Shown here: piece after piece, positions 60,355-64,000 of the stretch | Position numbering within the stretch: the first letter of the stretch is position 1 | Layout of the letters: the number at the start of each line of letters is the position of its first letter | Assembly (NCBI GenBank): GCA_017656425.1 | Contig: JACDNV010000001.1 | Coordinates: 266,132 to 330,131, forward strand | Length of the DNA: 64,000 nt | Origin: Candidatus Neomarinimicrobiota bacterium | GTDB lineage: Bacteria > Fidelibacterota > UBA2242 > B5-G15 | Direction: 5' to 3' | Notes under the pieces: generated by a model | What the model was told of the DNA's origin: nothing | Databases searched by the model: none | The model's input: only the letters and a program-made list of their open reading frames with translations | Made by a program: the position numbers and the translations under genes

Positions 60355-60431
60355 ATAGAACGTTGCCAGCATAGAAGAAGTCTTGGTAAACAAAAACTTT
60401 TGCAACATTAACTTATTATGTTGTGTTAGGG
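60355..60431 (-). repeat. attC-like site 0 (degenerate)
   Basis: A degenerate member of the attC-like set. The plus strand begins AACGTTGCCAGCATA, like site A's AACGGTTCCAGCATA, and ends TATGTTGTGTTAGG, giving complementary CATA/TATG inner arms. It marks the left end of the array. Confidence 0.45.
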
Positions 60432-60467
60432 GGAATACTATTGATCTATGCGATAAAGTAATGTATA

Positions 60468-60743
60468 TCAATTCAATGAAAGTTCCCCACATGTAAAAAC
60501 TATAAAGGTGTCTCTTATTTTTCCTTTAAATTTGACTCGTAAGCTATCTACCTCAAATTCTGAAGGTAAATTAATTGGGTCATAATGTTCGCCATCATCA
60601 GCTATTATTCCATAAAATCCACCTTCAAAGTCCAGATATATAACTGTCCCCTTACCCTCAACAATATCATAATCATTTGATACACAACCAGACAATATAA
60701 TAAGACAGAACAATAACACTTCCAAAAGGTTTAGAGTCCTCAT
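60468..60743 (-). CDS. Small lipoprotein with possible terminal frameshift (cassette gene)
   Basis: A lipoprotein signal (MRTLNLLEVLLFCLIILSGC) is followed by EGKGTVIYLDFEGGFYGIIADDGEHYDPINLPSEFEVDSLRVKFKGKIRDTF, a small domain I know from hypothetical proteins of several phyla that usually ends in a MWGTxVEI-like motif. Here the frame ends FTCGELSLN, but a one-base shift in the T5 run gives YMWGTFIELIYI, so the end is probably frameshifted or the read has an error. The start is ATG at 60743 after GGAG; it lies 52 bases from attC-like site A. Function unknown. Confidence 0.6.
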   Translation of the reverse strand: MRTLNLLEVLLFCLIILSGCVSNDYDIVEGKGTVIYLDFEGGFYGIIADDGEHYDPINLPSEFEVDSLRVKFKGKIRDTFIVFTCGELSLN

Positions 60744-60794
60744 ATCAAACAACTCCAATCAGCTGATATACATCTAAGAAATAGCCACTATGTC

Positions 60795-60874
60795 GCCTAA
60801 CGGTTCCAGCATAAAAGGAGTTGCCAAAGGCAATTTGGGCGAAGGGTAGCGAAGACTTTTATCCGCTGTTAGTA
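60795..60874 (-). repeat. attC-like site A
   Basis: The plus strand begins GCCTAAC (minus GTTAGGC, matching the GTTRRRY core) and ends GTTAGTA. Inside are complementary CATAAAAG/CTTTTAT arms and the hairpin TTGCC-AAA-GGCAA. Its length is about 80 bp. It separates the lipoprotein cassette from the permease cassette. Confidence 0.7.
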
Positions 60875-60876
60875 GA

Positions 60877-60923
60877 CCCGAACGAGGTGAGGGCAAGGCA
60901 ACGAAGTTGTCGCAGAGTTCGGG
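60877..60923. repeat. Additional hairpin next to attC-like site A
   Basis: CCCGAAC (60877-60883) is complementary to GTTCGGG (60917-60923), with a small GCAAC/GTTG hairpin inside. It lies between site A and the permease stop and may be part of an extended or second decayed site. Confidence 0.4.
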
Positions 60924-60964
60924 GGCAAAATTCATCTTCACAGTTATACAACCTTCTCCAGTCA

Positions 60965-61708
60965 TCATATTGCCTTAACCAGCACAATTATTGCGAGAAT
61001 CACAATGAATAATGAAAGCCCAATTTCTAGCCACAGTGGCTTTGTCTTCAAAGACATTAAACTACCTATTCGGGCTCCAATTATTGAGCCTACGACTACC
61101 ACTACAGCGGGGAGAAACATTATATTGCCGCGAGACCAAAACACAATCGCTCCTGCAATTGCTGTAAAAATAGTCGCAAACAGTGATGTGGCTATTGCTT
61201 TTCGAATACTAAGTCCTATTATTTTTAGGAAAGGGGGAAATAAACTACCCCCACTACCTCCACGTAGAATTGTTAGAAAGTTGAGAAAGAATGCTCCTAA
61301 AATGATAATATTTGGGCTTGGATTAATGTTTTGTGCTATTTGTGGAAAAGTTCTATTCATATGAATCCCTAATACACTTATAATGGATACGATAACAAAA
61401 ATAATTACTAAAACCAATGTTGAGATATATCCCGTTAAAAATGCCCCTGTTAAAGTACCCATTATCCCGCCAATTATTACATATGGAGCAATTTCCCAAT
61501 CTATGTTCTTTCTATGACTTATAGCGCCAGTAAAGGAGGACAATGGTATAACTACTAAATTTATTCCAAAAGCGCTTAACAAGGGCAATCCGGCAACATA
61601 AAGAAGTGGTATCCTTATAGATCCTCCTCCTATACCAAACATACCACTCATAAATCCGGCAAAAAGACCTATGAAAAGATATATAAGCATTTGTGTTATT
61701 GGTTCCAT
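60965..61708 (-). CDS. TauE/SafE-family permease (cassette gene)
   Basis: The 247-residue integral membrane protein has seven or eight hydrophobic segments. These include LIYLFIGLFAGFMSGMFGIGGGSIRIPLLY (the G-x-GGGxxxxPxL family hallmark), FTGAISHRKNIDWEIAPYVIIGGIMGTLTGAFLTGYIS and the second repeat LRGGSGGSLFPPFLKIIGLSIRKAIATSLFATIF with VVVVGSIIGARIGSLMSLKTKP. The family exports sulfite, sulfoacetate or related organosulfur anions; the substrate here is unknown. The start (GAGGG site) lies 36 bases from attC-like site 2, consistent with a single-gene cassette. Confidence 0.88.
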   Translation of the reverse strand: MEPITQMLIYLFIGLFAGFMSGMFGIGGGSIRIPLLYVAGLPLLSAFGINLVVIPLSSFTGAISHRKNIDWEIAPYVIIGGIMGTLTGAFLTGYISTLVLVIIFVIVSIISVLGIHMNRTFPQIAQNINPSPNIIILGAFFLNFLTILRGGSGGSLFPPFLKIIGLSIRKAIATSLFATIFTAIAGAIVFWSRGNIMFLPAVVVVVGSIIGARIGSLMSLKTKPLWLEIGLSLFIVILAIIVLVKAI

Positions 61709-61743
61709 TTTATTTCCCTCATCATATTTTGTCCCTGAATTTT

Positions 61744-61825
61744 TGTTAACGGTTTTAGGGTATGCGAAGTTCCGACTTGTCGGAATTTGAGTAAGCAGTA
61801 GCGAACTGCATACCCGCTGTTAATC
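61744..61825 (-). repeat. attC-like site 2
   Basis: Plus-strand ends TGTTAAC and GTTAATC enclose GGGTATGCGAAG/CTGCATACCC arms and the hairpin TTCCGACTTGTCGGAA. It is 82 bp long. The end of the cupin gene reads into it. Confidence 0.7.
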
Positions 61826-62150
61826 GACATTGCTTTAAACTTTTCACTACCTGTATGCCCATTATTTTAACGCCATCATTTGTCTTCATAGATAATGTTG
61901 CTGGTTCAGTAATAAGGCACTGCCCTTCTTTAATATTTATTATTTCCTGATTAACTCTTACTTCTGCTGCCCCCTCGATAACATAGAAAATAACATAAGA
62001 AGCCATTTCACAAGTTGGCATCTCTCCACCGGCTTGAAGCTCAATAATTCTTGCTTTAAATTCCTTAGCCTTATAAAAGACATTCTTATCCCCTTCCTCA
62101 TACGGATATGCTTTCATTGCTTTAAGATCAAACACTTGCATCCTCTTCAC
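61755..62150 (-). CDS. Small cupin-domain protein (cassette gene)
   Basis: The 131-residue protein has a single cupin barrel: ARIIELQAGGEMPTCEMASYVIFYVIEGAAEVRVNQEIINIKEGQCLITEPATLSM. The usual metal-binding histidines of motif 1 are not obvious (Cys and Met stand near the expected places), so metal binding is uncertain. The last 25 residues or so (QCRLTAGMQFATAYSNSDKSELRIP) come from the attC-like palindrome and are unlikely to be ancestral. ATG at 62150 overlaps the upstream permease stop by four bases. Confidence 0.75.
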   Translation of the reverse strand: MKRMQVFDLKAMKAYPYEEGDKNVFYKAKEFKARIIELQAGGEMPTCEMASYVIFYVIEGAAEVRVNQEIINIKEGQCLITEPATLSMKTNDGVKIMGIQVVKSLKQCRLTAGMQFATAYSNSDKSELRIP

Positions 62151-62707
62151 CTCCTAAGATTTGTTTGTTTTTTTTTATCACTCCATTCAATTAGTCTTTC
62201 TATTAATATTCCCATTATAGCCACAAAAATAATGGTTAAAATGAGTCTTGCTGCCATAAATTTTGGCCCAAGAAATTGAAGCTCTACCACCTCTTGTGGA
62301 ATTTTTATGCATGCCCATGCAGAGATAAACGCAATGATACAGGATATTTTGGCGCCTTTTTTAATTAAAGCAGAAGCCATAGGAAAAGCTACATAAAGAG
62401 GGCCTGTTGGCAATGACCCCATCAATATGCCAAGAAAAACAGCCTTTATTCCAGCAGCTTTACCTAAGTATCTCACAACCATTTCTTTTGGTACAAACAC
62501 ACTGAAAAGACCCATCAATACCATCACAGCAGGAAGTATCAAAATCATTTCAATAAAGAAGTTCCATGAAGTTGTGATTACTGCCTCTTGTTTGTCAGGA
62601 AAAATTGATAGTAAAGCTATTGTAATAATTAAAGTGATTCCAAGAATGATAGCATCTCTTTTCATCCCCTTTCTTTGTGTTCCTTTTTCTTTAACATAAT
62701 CTTTCAT
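62147..62707 (-). CDS. ArsP-like permease half protein B (cassette gene)
   Basis: The 186-residue membrane protein has about five hydrophobic segments: DAIILGITLIITIALLSIF, FFIEMILILPAVMVLMGLFSVF, VFLGILMGSLPTGPLYVAFPMASALIKKGAKISCIIAFISAWACIKIPQE and LILTIIFVAIMGILIERLIEW. The GxLPTGPLYVAFPMAxxLxxxGA block is typical of the ArsP/DUF318 permease family, in which full-length proteins carry two such halves. It overlaps both neighbours by four bases (ATGA), so three proteins are made together. Substrate unknown. Confidence 0.75.
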   Translation of the reverse strand: MKDYVKEKGTQRKGMKRDAIILGITLIITIALLSIFPDKQEAVITTSWNFFIEMILILPAVMVLMGLFSVFVPKEMVVRYLGKAAGIKAVFLGILMGSLPTGPLYVAFPMASALIKKGAKISCIIAFISAWACIKIPQEVVELQFLGPKFMAARLILTIIFVAIMGILIERLIEWSDKKKQTNLRR

Positions 62708-63186
62708 AGAAACACCCCCATGATAATACCAATAATGATTGCAATAACAAAACTTATACCATTTCTCATTAAAGCCATTTTCTTTCCTAATTCCTTTATT
62801 TCTAAGGGCAGTGTAACCACGCCAATCATGGTTAAAGTGGTAATGAACACTGCAACTGAGGTAACTGATGCTCCGCTTTTGAGGAGAGATGCTGCTAATG
62901 GGAAAGAAATTAAAGAGGGGATGTGCAAAAATGCTCCCAACAATGCTACAATAAGTACTCCCCCGAAACCTGCTTGTTCACCAACGATTTTAGAAATTTG
63001 ACTTTGTGGTATGAAACCTAAAAGCAGACCTATAAAGATTATAATAATGAGAACTGAAGGGATAATACGAAAGAATGACTTTAATGATACAGTTAGTGCT
63101 TGTTTTGTTTTTATCCGATCCTTAATAATCGCAAATATTAAACAGCCAAAAGTAAAAACATTTATAAATATGGTAGTTGTATTCAT
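62704..63186 (-). CDS. ArsP-like permease half protein A (cassette gene)
   Basis: This is the other half-size permease. Segments include IFINVFTFGCLIFAIIKDR, IIPSVLIIIIFIGLLLGFIP, VLIVALLGAFLHIPSLISFPLAASLLKSGASVTSVAVFITTLTMIGVVTLPLE and ISFVIAIIIGIIMGVFL. It aligns with the downstream protein in the loop G-x-L-x-P-x-x-x-x-FPxAxxLxxxGA. The frame extends back to 63294, but that part is attC-like sequence; the ATG at 63186 has AAGGAA upstream and lies 33 bases from the site, as in the other cassettes. Together with the next gene it probably forms one transporter. Confidence 0.75.
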   Translation of the reverse strand: MNTTTIFINVFTFGCLIFAIIKDRIKTKQALTVSLKSFFRIIPSVLIIIIFIGLLLGFIPQSQISKIVGEQAGFGGVLIVALLGAFLHIPSLISFPLAASLLKSGASVTSVAVFITTLTMIGVVTLPLEIKELGKKMALMRNGISFVIAIIIGIIMGVFL

Positions 63187-63218
63187 GGTATATTCCTTAA
63201 TAAATATATAGCAATGTA

Positions 63219-63303
63219 GTATAACGTTTCGGGGATATGTGAAGTCCCGCTTTGCAGGATTTGGGCGTAGCCAAAGGCGGAGCCATATATCCACCTGTTA
63301 GGC
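63219..63303 (-). repeat. attC-like site 3
   Basis: The plus strand begins GTATAAC and ends GTTAGGC, so the minus strand starts GCCTAAC (matching RYYYAAC) eight bases after the acetyltransferase stop. Arms GGATATGTG/CATATATCC and hairpin-forming CCCGCTTTGCAGG type inner sequence are visible. It is 85 bp long. Confidence 0.72.
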
Positions 63304-63310
63304 GAAGTTA

Positions 63311-63907
63311 TCATTTTAATTCTTTCGTCATTCTATAAAATTGTAATATTTTATCTCTTTGTAAAGGTACTGAAAACTCTTTTATTATTTCATAACCCAA
63401 TTTCTTGTAAAAGCCAATTGCACCTATATTATTCTTCTCAACATCTAGTACTATCCTTTTAGCGCCCATTATCTCTGCTTCTTGTTCAACTTCAAACATC
63501 AACCTTTTTCCCACTCCCATTCCTCTGTACTTAGGGTATGTAGCAATATTGCTGATATAATATTCGCCCTCGTGTAGTTTTCCAACCGTAGCATTAAATT
63601 TCATTAATAACGATAACCTACATATTATAACAACACCTATTCTCTTAAATAACAAAAATCCCGTTTTTAAATTTTCTTGTTTCTTTGTTTGCCAATCATA
63701 CCCCAAGACCATACCAGCTTTCTTTTCATCGACTTCAGCAAAATATACATTTTCAAAAGAAAATAAATTAGAATGACGACAAAACAAATCTTGTAATACT
63801 GAGTGTATCCTTCTGCTGAAAAGAATTTGAAAATAGGGAGCAGAGATAAGCATCAAATTGGAAAAATCTTTCTTGTCATCTAAAGTGGCTTTTCTAACTT
63901 TTATCAT
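63311..63907 (-). CDS. GNAT-family N-acetyltransferase (cassette gene)
   Basis: The 198-residue protein has the GNAT acetyl-CoA fold: IKVRKATLDDKKDFSNLM, EYYISNIATYPKYRGMGVGKRLMFEVEQEAEIMGAKRIVLDVEKNNIGAIGFYKKLGYEIIKEF. The pyrophosphate loop is RGMGVGKRL. The acceptor may be a small molecule or a protein; it cannot be told. It has AAAGGTG before ATG 63907, which is 36 bases from attC-like site 4, and its stop is eight bases from site 3. Small acetyltransferases are among the most common integron cassette genes. Confidence 0.9.
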   Translation of the reverse strand: MIKVRKATLDDKKDFSNLMLISAPYFQILFSRRIHSVLQDLFCRHSNLFSFENVYFAEVDEKKAGMVLGYDWQTKKQENLKTGFLLFKRIGVVIICRLSLLMKFNATVGKLHEGEYYISNIATYPKYRGMGVGKRLMFEVEQEAEIMGAKRIVLDVEKNNIGAIGFYKKLGYEIIKEFSVPLQRDKILQFYRMTKELK

Positions 63908-63942
63908 AGTTTACACCTTTGTTCATATCGTTTAATAATTAC

Positions 63943-64000
63943 GCCTAACGTTTGGCGGACATGCGAATTTCGGCTTTGCCGAATTTTGGCGGAGCGAAGC
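63943..64000 (-). repeat. attC-like site 4 (cut by window end)
   Basis: The plus strand begins GCCTAACGTTTGGCGGACAT (minus core GTTAGGC). The inner hairpin TTTCGGCTTTGCCGAA and GGCGGAGCGAAGC follow up to the window edge. The array therefore continues to the right. Confidence 0.7.

Follow-up and report, generated by a model that had tools for sequence, protein, structure and literature searches.

Integron-like cassette array at a contig end

Which recombination system assembled the genes at the right end of contig JACDNV010000001.1 (here C1) of a Candidatus Neomarinimicrobiota bacterium? The stretch that we analyzed (the window; 64,000 nucleotides, C1:266132-330131 of 330131) stops with the contig at position 64000. 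Its last part, from 60355 to 64000, holds single genes or a small operon set between palindromes, which a preliminary description had taken for five attC-like sites of a cassette array. The source is a metagenome-assembled genome (MAG) of 2.8 Mb in 50 contigs, 99.66% complete. Our analysis makes it probable that the segment represents the distal portion of a relic cassette array, built by an integron-like system whose tyrosine recombinase lacks the insertion specific to IntI (the I2 patch; ‘patch-less’ below) and whose sites mostly lack extrahelical bases (EHBs).

Folded sites in the window

Four of the window sites (s2 to s5; Table 1) follow a common plan on the + strand: TAACG, a bulge of 4-6 nt, a stem of 9-11 bp, a variable terminal hairpin region and TGTTA. 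All cassette genes are encoded on the minus strand, which makes the + strand the bottom (folded) strand in integron terms. The R' and R'' boxes (RYYYAAC and GTTRRRY) are present in s2 to s5, while s1 fails at R'. The R stem is 93.8-96% paired and the central spacer is mostly 1/5 nt with variable loops, so that an unpaired central spacer and a variable terminal structure are both found, with an asymmetry that exceeds that of canonical attC sites.

Two models were used for scoring, R1, which was trained on s2 to s4, and R2, a covariance model trained on 30 sites, all from other genomes. R1 recovers s5, which was outside its training set, plus 25 places across the genome, and the independent R2 scores s2 to s5 well (E values from 3e-14 to 2e-3). 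Four of the five sites first described therefore stand, the last of them truncated, while s1 is a decayed distal site at best. Across the 30 foreign sites paired cells reach 95.5% (78.5% when shuffled, 29-45% when slid) with 76 double changes vs. 21, and across 27 sites of the source genome 87.9% vs. 76.2% with 56 double changes vs. 18; both alignments had been made to fit the structure, a bias toward pairing that the slid and shuffled controls offset in part. Folding of single sites as DNA, compared with shuffled sequences, gave z = -4.1 for s3 and about -0.3 for s2 and s4. The case for the sites is built on the common model and on covariation; the fold energies of individual sites do not carry it.

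Arrays across the genome

Genome-wide, there are 28 such sites at E≤0.1, nearly all of them within arrays. Besides the window array on C1 there are arrays on C8, C18, C19 and C20, pairs of sites at 66.7-67.4 kb of C1 and on C6, and a single site on C9. In all of these arrays every listed open reading frame that lies between sites has the orientation of the cassettes, each site following a stop and preceding a start. Comparison of contig ends revealed no common ends joining C1 to C18, C20 or C19. Scored with R1 and R2, the architecture resembles that of a cluster of attC sites lacking integron-integrases (CALIN), with several attC-like sites in a row and no integrase gene. Cassettes of the sister arrays (L082 5468-19728, L081 8082-10079) encode defence-like genes, including bSEFIR, PDC-S02, DNA methyltransferases, a UvrD-like helicase and an OLD-like nuclease, and restriction-modification genes are among them.

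The cassette anatomy of the window agrees with the preliminary description, which had placed the start codons of four cassettes 33-52 nt from a site (they lie at 36, 33, 36 and 52 nt) and had the acetyltransferase and cupin genes end at or inside one (6 nt before s4 and within s3, respectively). Its general picture also holds: in a little-studied lineage, attC-like sites stand between gene cassettes and no integrase is visible. Neither of the outcomes that it had named as refuting was obtained, since an independent covariance model gives good scores to four sites and the palindromes are not dispersed in the manner of REPs.

Homologues of the TauE cassette (about 69-96% DNA identity) occur on MAG contigs assigned to other organisms (L114, L115, L116, L119, L120). 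The homology of L114 and L119 to the window starts at 61757 and 61751, respectively, close to the GTT core, for which they have GTTAGCA and GTTAGTA, and that of L120 stops inside s2; the breaks at the GTT core fit cassette insertion at R'. The contigs L115 and L119 are binned as archaea (Bathyarchaeota and Desulfurococcales MAGs), the result of either cross-domain transfer or mis-binning.

Recombinase remnants and attI-like sites

A search of the genome turned up no intact integrase, only fragments, and no match to the IntI model TIGR02249 above the cut-off; an intact IntI elsewhere in this genome was considered and rejected. In addition to two Xer genes there are four recombinase remnants, on C8, C18, C20 and C19. 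The C8 remnant has 60% identity to the patch-less enzyme of relative G004 vs. 33-41% to IntI, and the C18 remnant has 40% identity to the patch-less type over 101 amino acids, while its match to IntI extends over just 29-37. Both are dead genes at the proximal end of their arrays, in cassette orientation. Each of these arrays begins with an attI-like site, at C8 103290 (CATATTCGAAAAGTTCGGATATGAACGA followed by GTTATC) and C18 33818 (AATATAACAAC followed by GTTAGGC), with R2-type sites directly after it, and both share the build of the attI-like site of G004 (TATCCGAACCTGTTCGGATATAACCAA followed by GTT). The remaining two remnants belong to the IntI type, each being located distally to its array. 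That on C20 (L080 6606-6947) is an N-terminal piece fused to a C-terminal piece by internal deletion, and that on C19 (L082 276-661) is an N-terminal half with a broken frame. The genome formerly carried a true IntI too.

Because the contig ends inside s5, we infer the recombinase of the window array from its site family and from the sister arrays, which point to the patch-less enzyme. The integrase had been expected to the right of the window unless the array was a cluster without one. The contig ends at 64000, and the first option is improbable, since only fragments turned up in a genome that is 99.66% complete; the second, a cluster without an enzyme of its own, is the probable one.

Patch-less recombinases in related genomes

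The patch-less type aligns with IntI over its full length except for the I2 patch, which is missing. It matches PF13495 and PF00589, shares the SAM-like N-terminal and the catalytic domains of IntI, and retains the catalytic motifs RHSFATHLL, LLGH and YTH in relatives; by profile, the closest solved structure is IntI4 (2A3V). A patch-less profile run against 245 genomes of the phylum separates group A, the patch-less cassette integrases (368-503 bits), from group B (282-346 bits) and Xer (≤183 bits). Group B recombinases adjoin ksgA or cation-efflux genes and have no attI; they were set apart from the cassette integrases as probably ordinary Xer-type genes. Patch-less recombinases in L122, L124, L126 and L178 have about 110-150 additional residues at the N-terminus, and the one such extension tested (G019) matched no Pfam family.

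Where a group A gene has any 3' flank, an attI-like region that closes with [A/T]AC and GTT, or similar, comes after it in most cases. Among the 12 group A genes whose contig runs out within 600 bp, five (G003, G004, G012, G025, G035) have the break directly at this GTT or one base beyond it (p near 1e-8 by a rough estimate). It is likely that different cassettes follow there across the sampled population. The IntI contigs G010 and G076 break likewise. Ends of IntI contigs of relatives (L028 and L033) likewise coincide with the GTTA of attI or attC.

Site type, extrahelical bases and phylogeny

In G014, G016 and G019 an intact group A gene has R2-type sites downstream of it, and an R2 search of 20 IntI loci returned none. 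All known attC sites reportedly share EHBs, an unpaired central spacer and a variable terminal structure, the first EHB being absolutely conserved (Bouvier 2009, PMC2727003). We scored EHBs with a single neutral stem aligner that permits bulges on either arm, applying a blind filter and keeping false positives; the known bulges of the class 1 controls, the aadA1 and dfrA1 attC sites of plasmids, were recovered. A bulge on the R''-L'' arm is found in 14 of 19 IntI-linked sites (the other five resemble chance hits) vs. 1 of 12 linked to patch-less enzymes (Fisher p = 6e-4). R2-type sites have it in about 2 of 17 cases in the source genome and 4 of 26 in relatives, while IntI-linked attCs of the same phylum bear EHBs at regular positions.

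In a recombinase tree rooted at the midpoint, group A and its plasmid homologues are joined with IntI (83/87), to the exclusion of group B and Xer. The IntI sequences make up a single clade (100/100) beside or among group A, and 57% of bootstrap trees have a branch that sets group A apart. IntI thus appears to be either sister to group A or derived from it, with moderate support for the common grouping.

The additional domain has been treated as defining IntI (Ghaly 2022). The label of IntI integron fails here on two tested defining features, the I2 patch in the linked enzyme and the EHBs. On this point the preliminary description needs correction, the array probably not being a plain IntI integron: on both C8 and C18 the start of the array is formed by an attI-like site and the dead gene of a patch-less recombinase, and most sites of this type are EHB-less. 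That the system is integron-like in action is well supported by its anatomy.

Comparison with known systems

The system resembles IntI integrons (class 1, Vibrio, those with a reversed intI as in Treponema, and those of archaea, PMC9668308) in that an attI-like site adjoins the recombinase gene (downstream of it, as in the archaeal ones), the cores read GTTRRRY and RYYYAAC, and a cassette consists of one gene or small operon plus one folded site, inserted at GTT in a single orientation. It differs from them in a recombinase that lacks the I2 insertion and forms a separate clade from IntI on the tree, and in sites that are mostly EHB-less, with a 1/5-nt asymmetric spacer. Like a CALIN, the array consists of sites and cassettes and has no integrase gene, and it is probably a relic, whereas the site family and the attI of the sister arrays indicate a patch-less enzyme.

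Arrays of recombinase-associated acquired interbacterial defence (rAID) genes in gut Bacteroidales likewise combine a tyrosine recombinase with short co-oriented genes and conserved intergenic motifs (PMC12247911), and the recombinases of Bacteroides/Parabacteroides plasmid arrays fall within the same patch-less clade. On plasmids of Bacteroidota, homologues of the patch-less type stand in front of arrays whose genes are co-oriented. In those of Bacteroides ovatus and Parabacteroides (L239 8829-16804; L242 8829-16204) the integrase is followed by immunity genes (SMI1/KNR4, Imm26, PoNi and Tdi1 among them) that short hairpin repeats separate, with ATT in place of GTT; judging by gene content, these are probably rAID arrays. 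Unlike the window array, rAID arrays have mostly immunity genes of the type VI secretion system and a shorter motif with ATT for GTT; the window cassettes instead encode GNAT, ArsP-like permeases, a cupin-like protein, TauE and a lipoprotein.

TnpF (tpnF), found beside tet(X3) on Acinetobacter plasmids, is another member of the patch-less clade and is followed by a palindrome and a GTTATG attI-like site directly before tet(X3). It differs in that its match begins at query residue 48 and that a single site arm is left after tet(X3). On pHH1107 (FJ012881; L238 5690-7150), tet(X3) starts just past the attI-like palindrome and GTT core downstream of TnpF, with one attC-like arm after it. Such an arrangement makes cassette capture of tet(X3) a possibility. 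In the Chryseobacterium plasmids L240 and L243, two long and nearly identical palindromic units (GTTGGGAAAAATCGCCC...) come after a patch-less integrase; in L240 they stand around cassettes.

Window cassettes

The sites and genes of the array are listed in Table 1. The two neighboring half-length ArsP_1 permeases (62147-63186) both match the N-terminal half of the family and belong to one cassette.

Table 1. Attachment sites and cassette genes at the right end of the window (window positions).
Feature	Position	Strand	Description
s1	60355-60433	+	Decayed attC-like site, at best, and distal-most of the array; R' is GTTCTAT, not GTTRRRY; R2 E 0.086; missed by R1
Cassette 4	60468-60758	-	Small predicted lipoprotein; no family match; probable start 60743, 52 nt from R' of s2
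s2	60795-60876	+	attC-like; R2 E 7.3e-13; 88% identity with the site upstream of TauE in L116
Cassette 3	60965-61708	-	TauE/SafE family permease; PF01925 E 1.6e-36; start 61708, 36 nt from R'
s3	61744-61827	+	attC-like; R2 E 3.3e-14; cassette boundary GTTAACA at 61744-61750 (minus strand)
Cassette 2, gene c	61755-62150	-	Small cupin-like protein; Cupin_2 E 3e-4, under the curated cut-off; stop and C-terminus within s3
Cassette 2, gene b	62147-62707	-	Half-length ArsP_1-type permease; PF03773 E 3.7e-13
Cassette 2, gene a	62704-63186	-	Half-length ArsP_1-type permease; PF03773 E 6.7e-10; ATG 63186, 33 nt from R'
s4	63219-63305	+	attC-like; R2 E 3.5e-14; L stem with a single unpaired base after 2 bp
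Cassette 1	63311-63907	-	GNAT acetyltransferase; PF00583 E 6.7e-17; start 63907, 36 nt from R'; ends 6 nt before s4
s5	63943-64000	+	attC-like, truncated by contig end; GTTAGGC core on minus strand; R1 E 5e-5, R2 E 0.0022

Alternative explanations

Several observations weigh against a patch-less origin of the window array. Its own attI and recombinase are unseen, the remnants near the C19 and C20 arrays are of IntI type, albeit distal, and a few sites of the source genome do have an EHB-like base (s4; C18 38977; C20 35267). Among the relatives, G010, G011, G015, G018 and G022 are R2-positive and have no patch-less cassette integrase above threshold, and the comparisons as a whole are based on MAG assemblies. 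One alternative is that the array is an ordinary CALIN, a decayed IntI integron whose attCs happen to have few EHBs. In its favor, the sites have R' (GTTRRRY) and R'' cores, IntI is intact in 30 of 100 relatives and fragmentary in the source genome, and deletion of the EHBs does not abolish attC x attI recombination (Bouvier 2009, PMC2727003), so IntI may move such cassettes. Still, we consider a decayed IntI integron unlikely given the patch-less type of the proximal remnants and attI on C8 and C18, the lack of R2 sites in the 20 IntI loci, and the EHBs of IntI-linked attCs in the same phylum. A somewhat stronger competitor, if on balance a doubtful one, is a patch-less array that works by ordinary double-stranded, Xer-like recombination, with the hairpins merely representing inverted binding arms. 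The enzymes lack I2 and match the XerA, XerC and XerD models well, and XerCD has no structural adaptation to single strands (Escudero 2016, PMC4792948). Against this, the sequence of the L stem varies freely while its pairing is kept, as expected of structure recognition, and site length and terminal structure vary widely.

Finally, the palindromes could be repeats like REP (repetitive extragenic palindromic) sequences or BIMEs (bacterial interspersed mosaic elements), terminators or an assembly artefact instead of recombination sites, given that they lie between genes and that the contig ends at one of them. This is extremely improbable. The sites are not scattered over the genome, as the preliminary description allowed that REP-like elements might be; they lie nearly all in arrays, always between a stop and a start on one strand, and are strongly covarying. 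Homology breaks are cassette-precise, the same site family occurs in other genomes, and the window sites gave no gathering-level Rfam match. REP elements were thus excluded, and terminators were likewise considered and rejected as the identity of the sites.

Proposed mechanism and implications

For the integron-like, patch-less system that we favor, cassettes would insert at attI and be excised at the G^TT of the R' box. A site would be recognized by its fold, probably as single-stranded DNA or a cruciform, since its structure is kept while its sequence varies; recombination of single strands is thus suggested by sequence comparison. The strand would be set by the asymmetric 1-nt/5-nt spacer rather than by EHBs. 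In the source genome the system is probably dead, and the array would survive there as a cluster that lacks an enzyme of its own.

How the I2 domain and the EHBs arose together has been described as a chicken-egg paradox, as neither seems useful alone (Escudero 2016, PMC4792948). A clade that has cassettes, attI and folded sites, with no patch and few EHBs, would offer a testable intermediate or a parallel solution to this paradox. It would also bring rAID arrays, some CALINs and perhaps the capture of tet(X) under one mechanism. We tentatively raise the possibility that patch-less integrases with folded, EHB-less sites are the living form of the state before IntI, that cassettes were captured at hairpin sites first, with the I2 patch and EHBs added later, and that the same clade drives the rAID arrays of Bacteroidales and captured tet(X). 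Integron searches that demand the IntI patch would miss patch-less integrases. The system may show how integrons began, and its cassettes are packaged in the same manner as the ones by which integrons spread antibiotic resistance.

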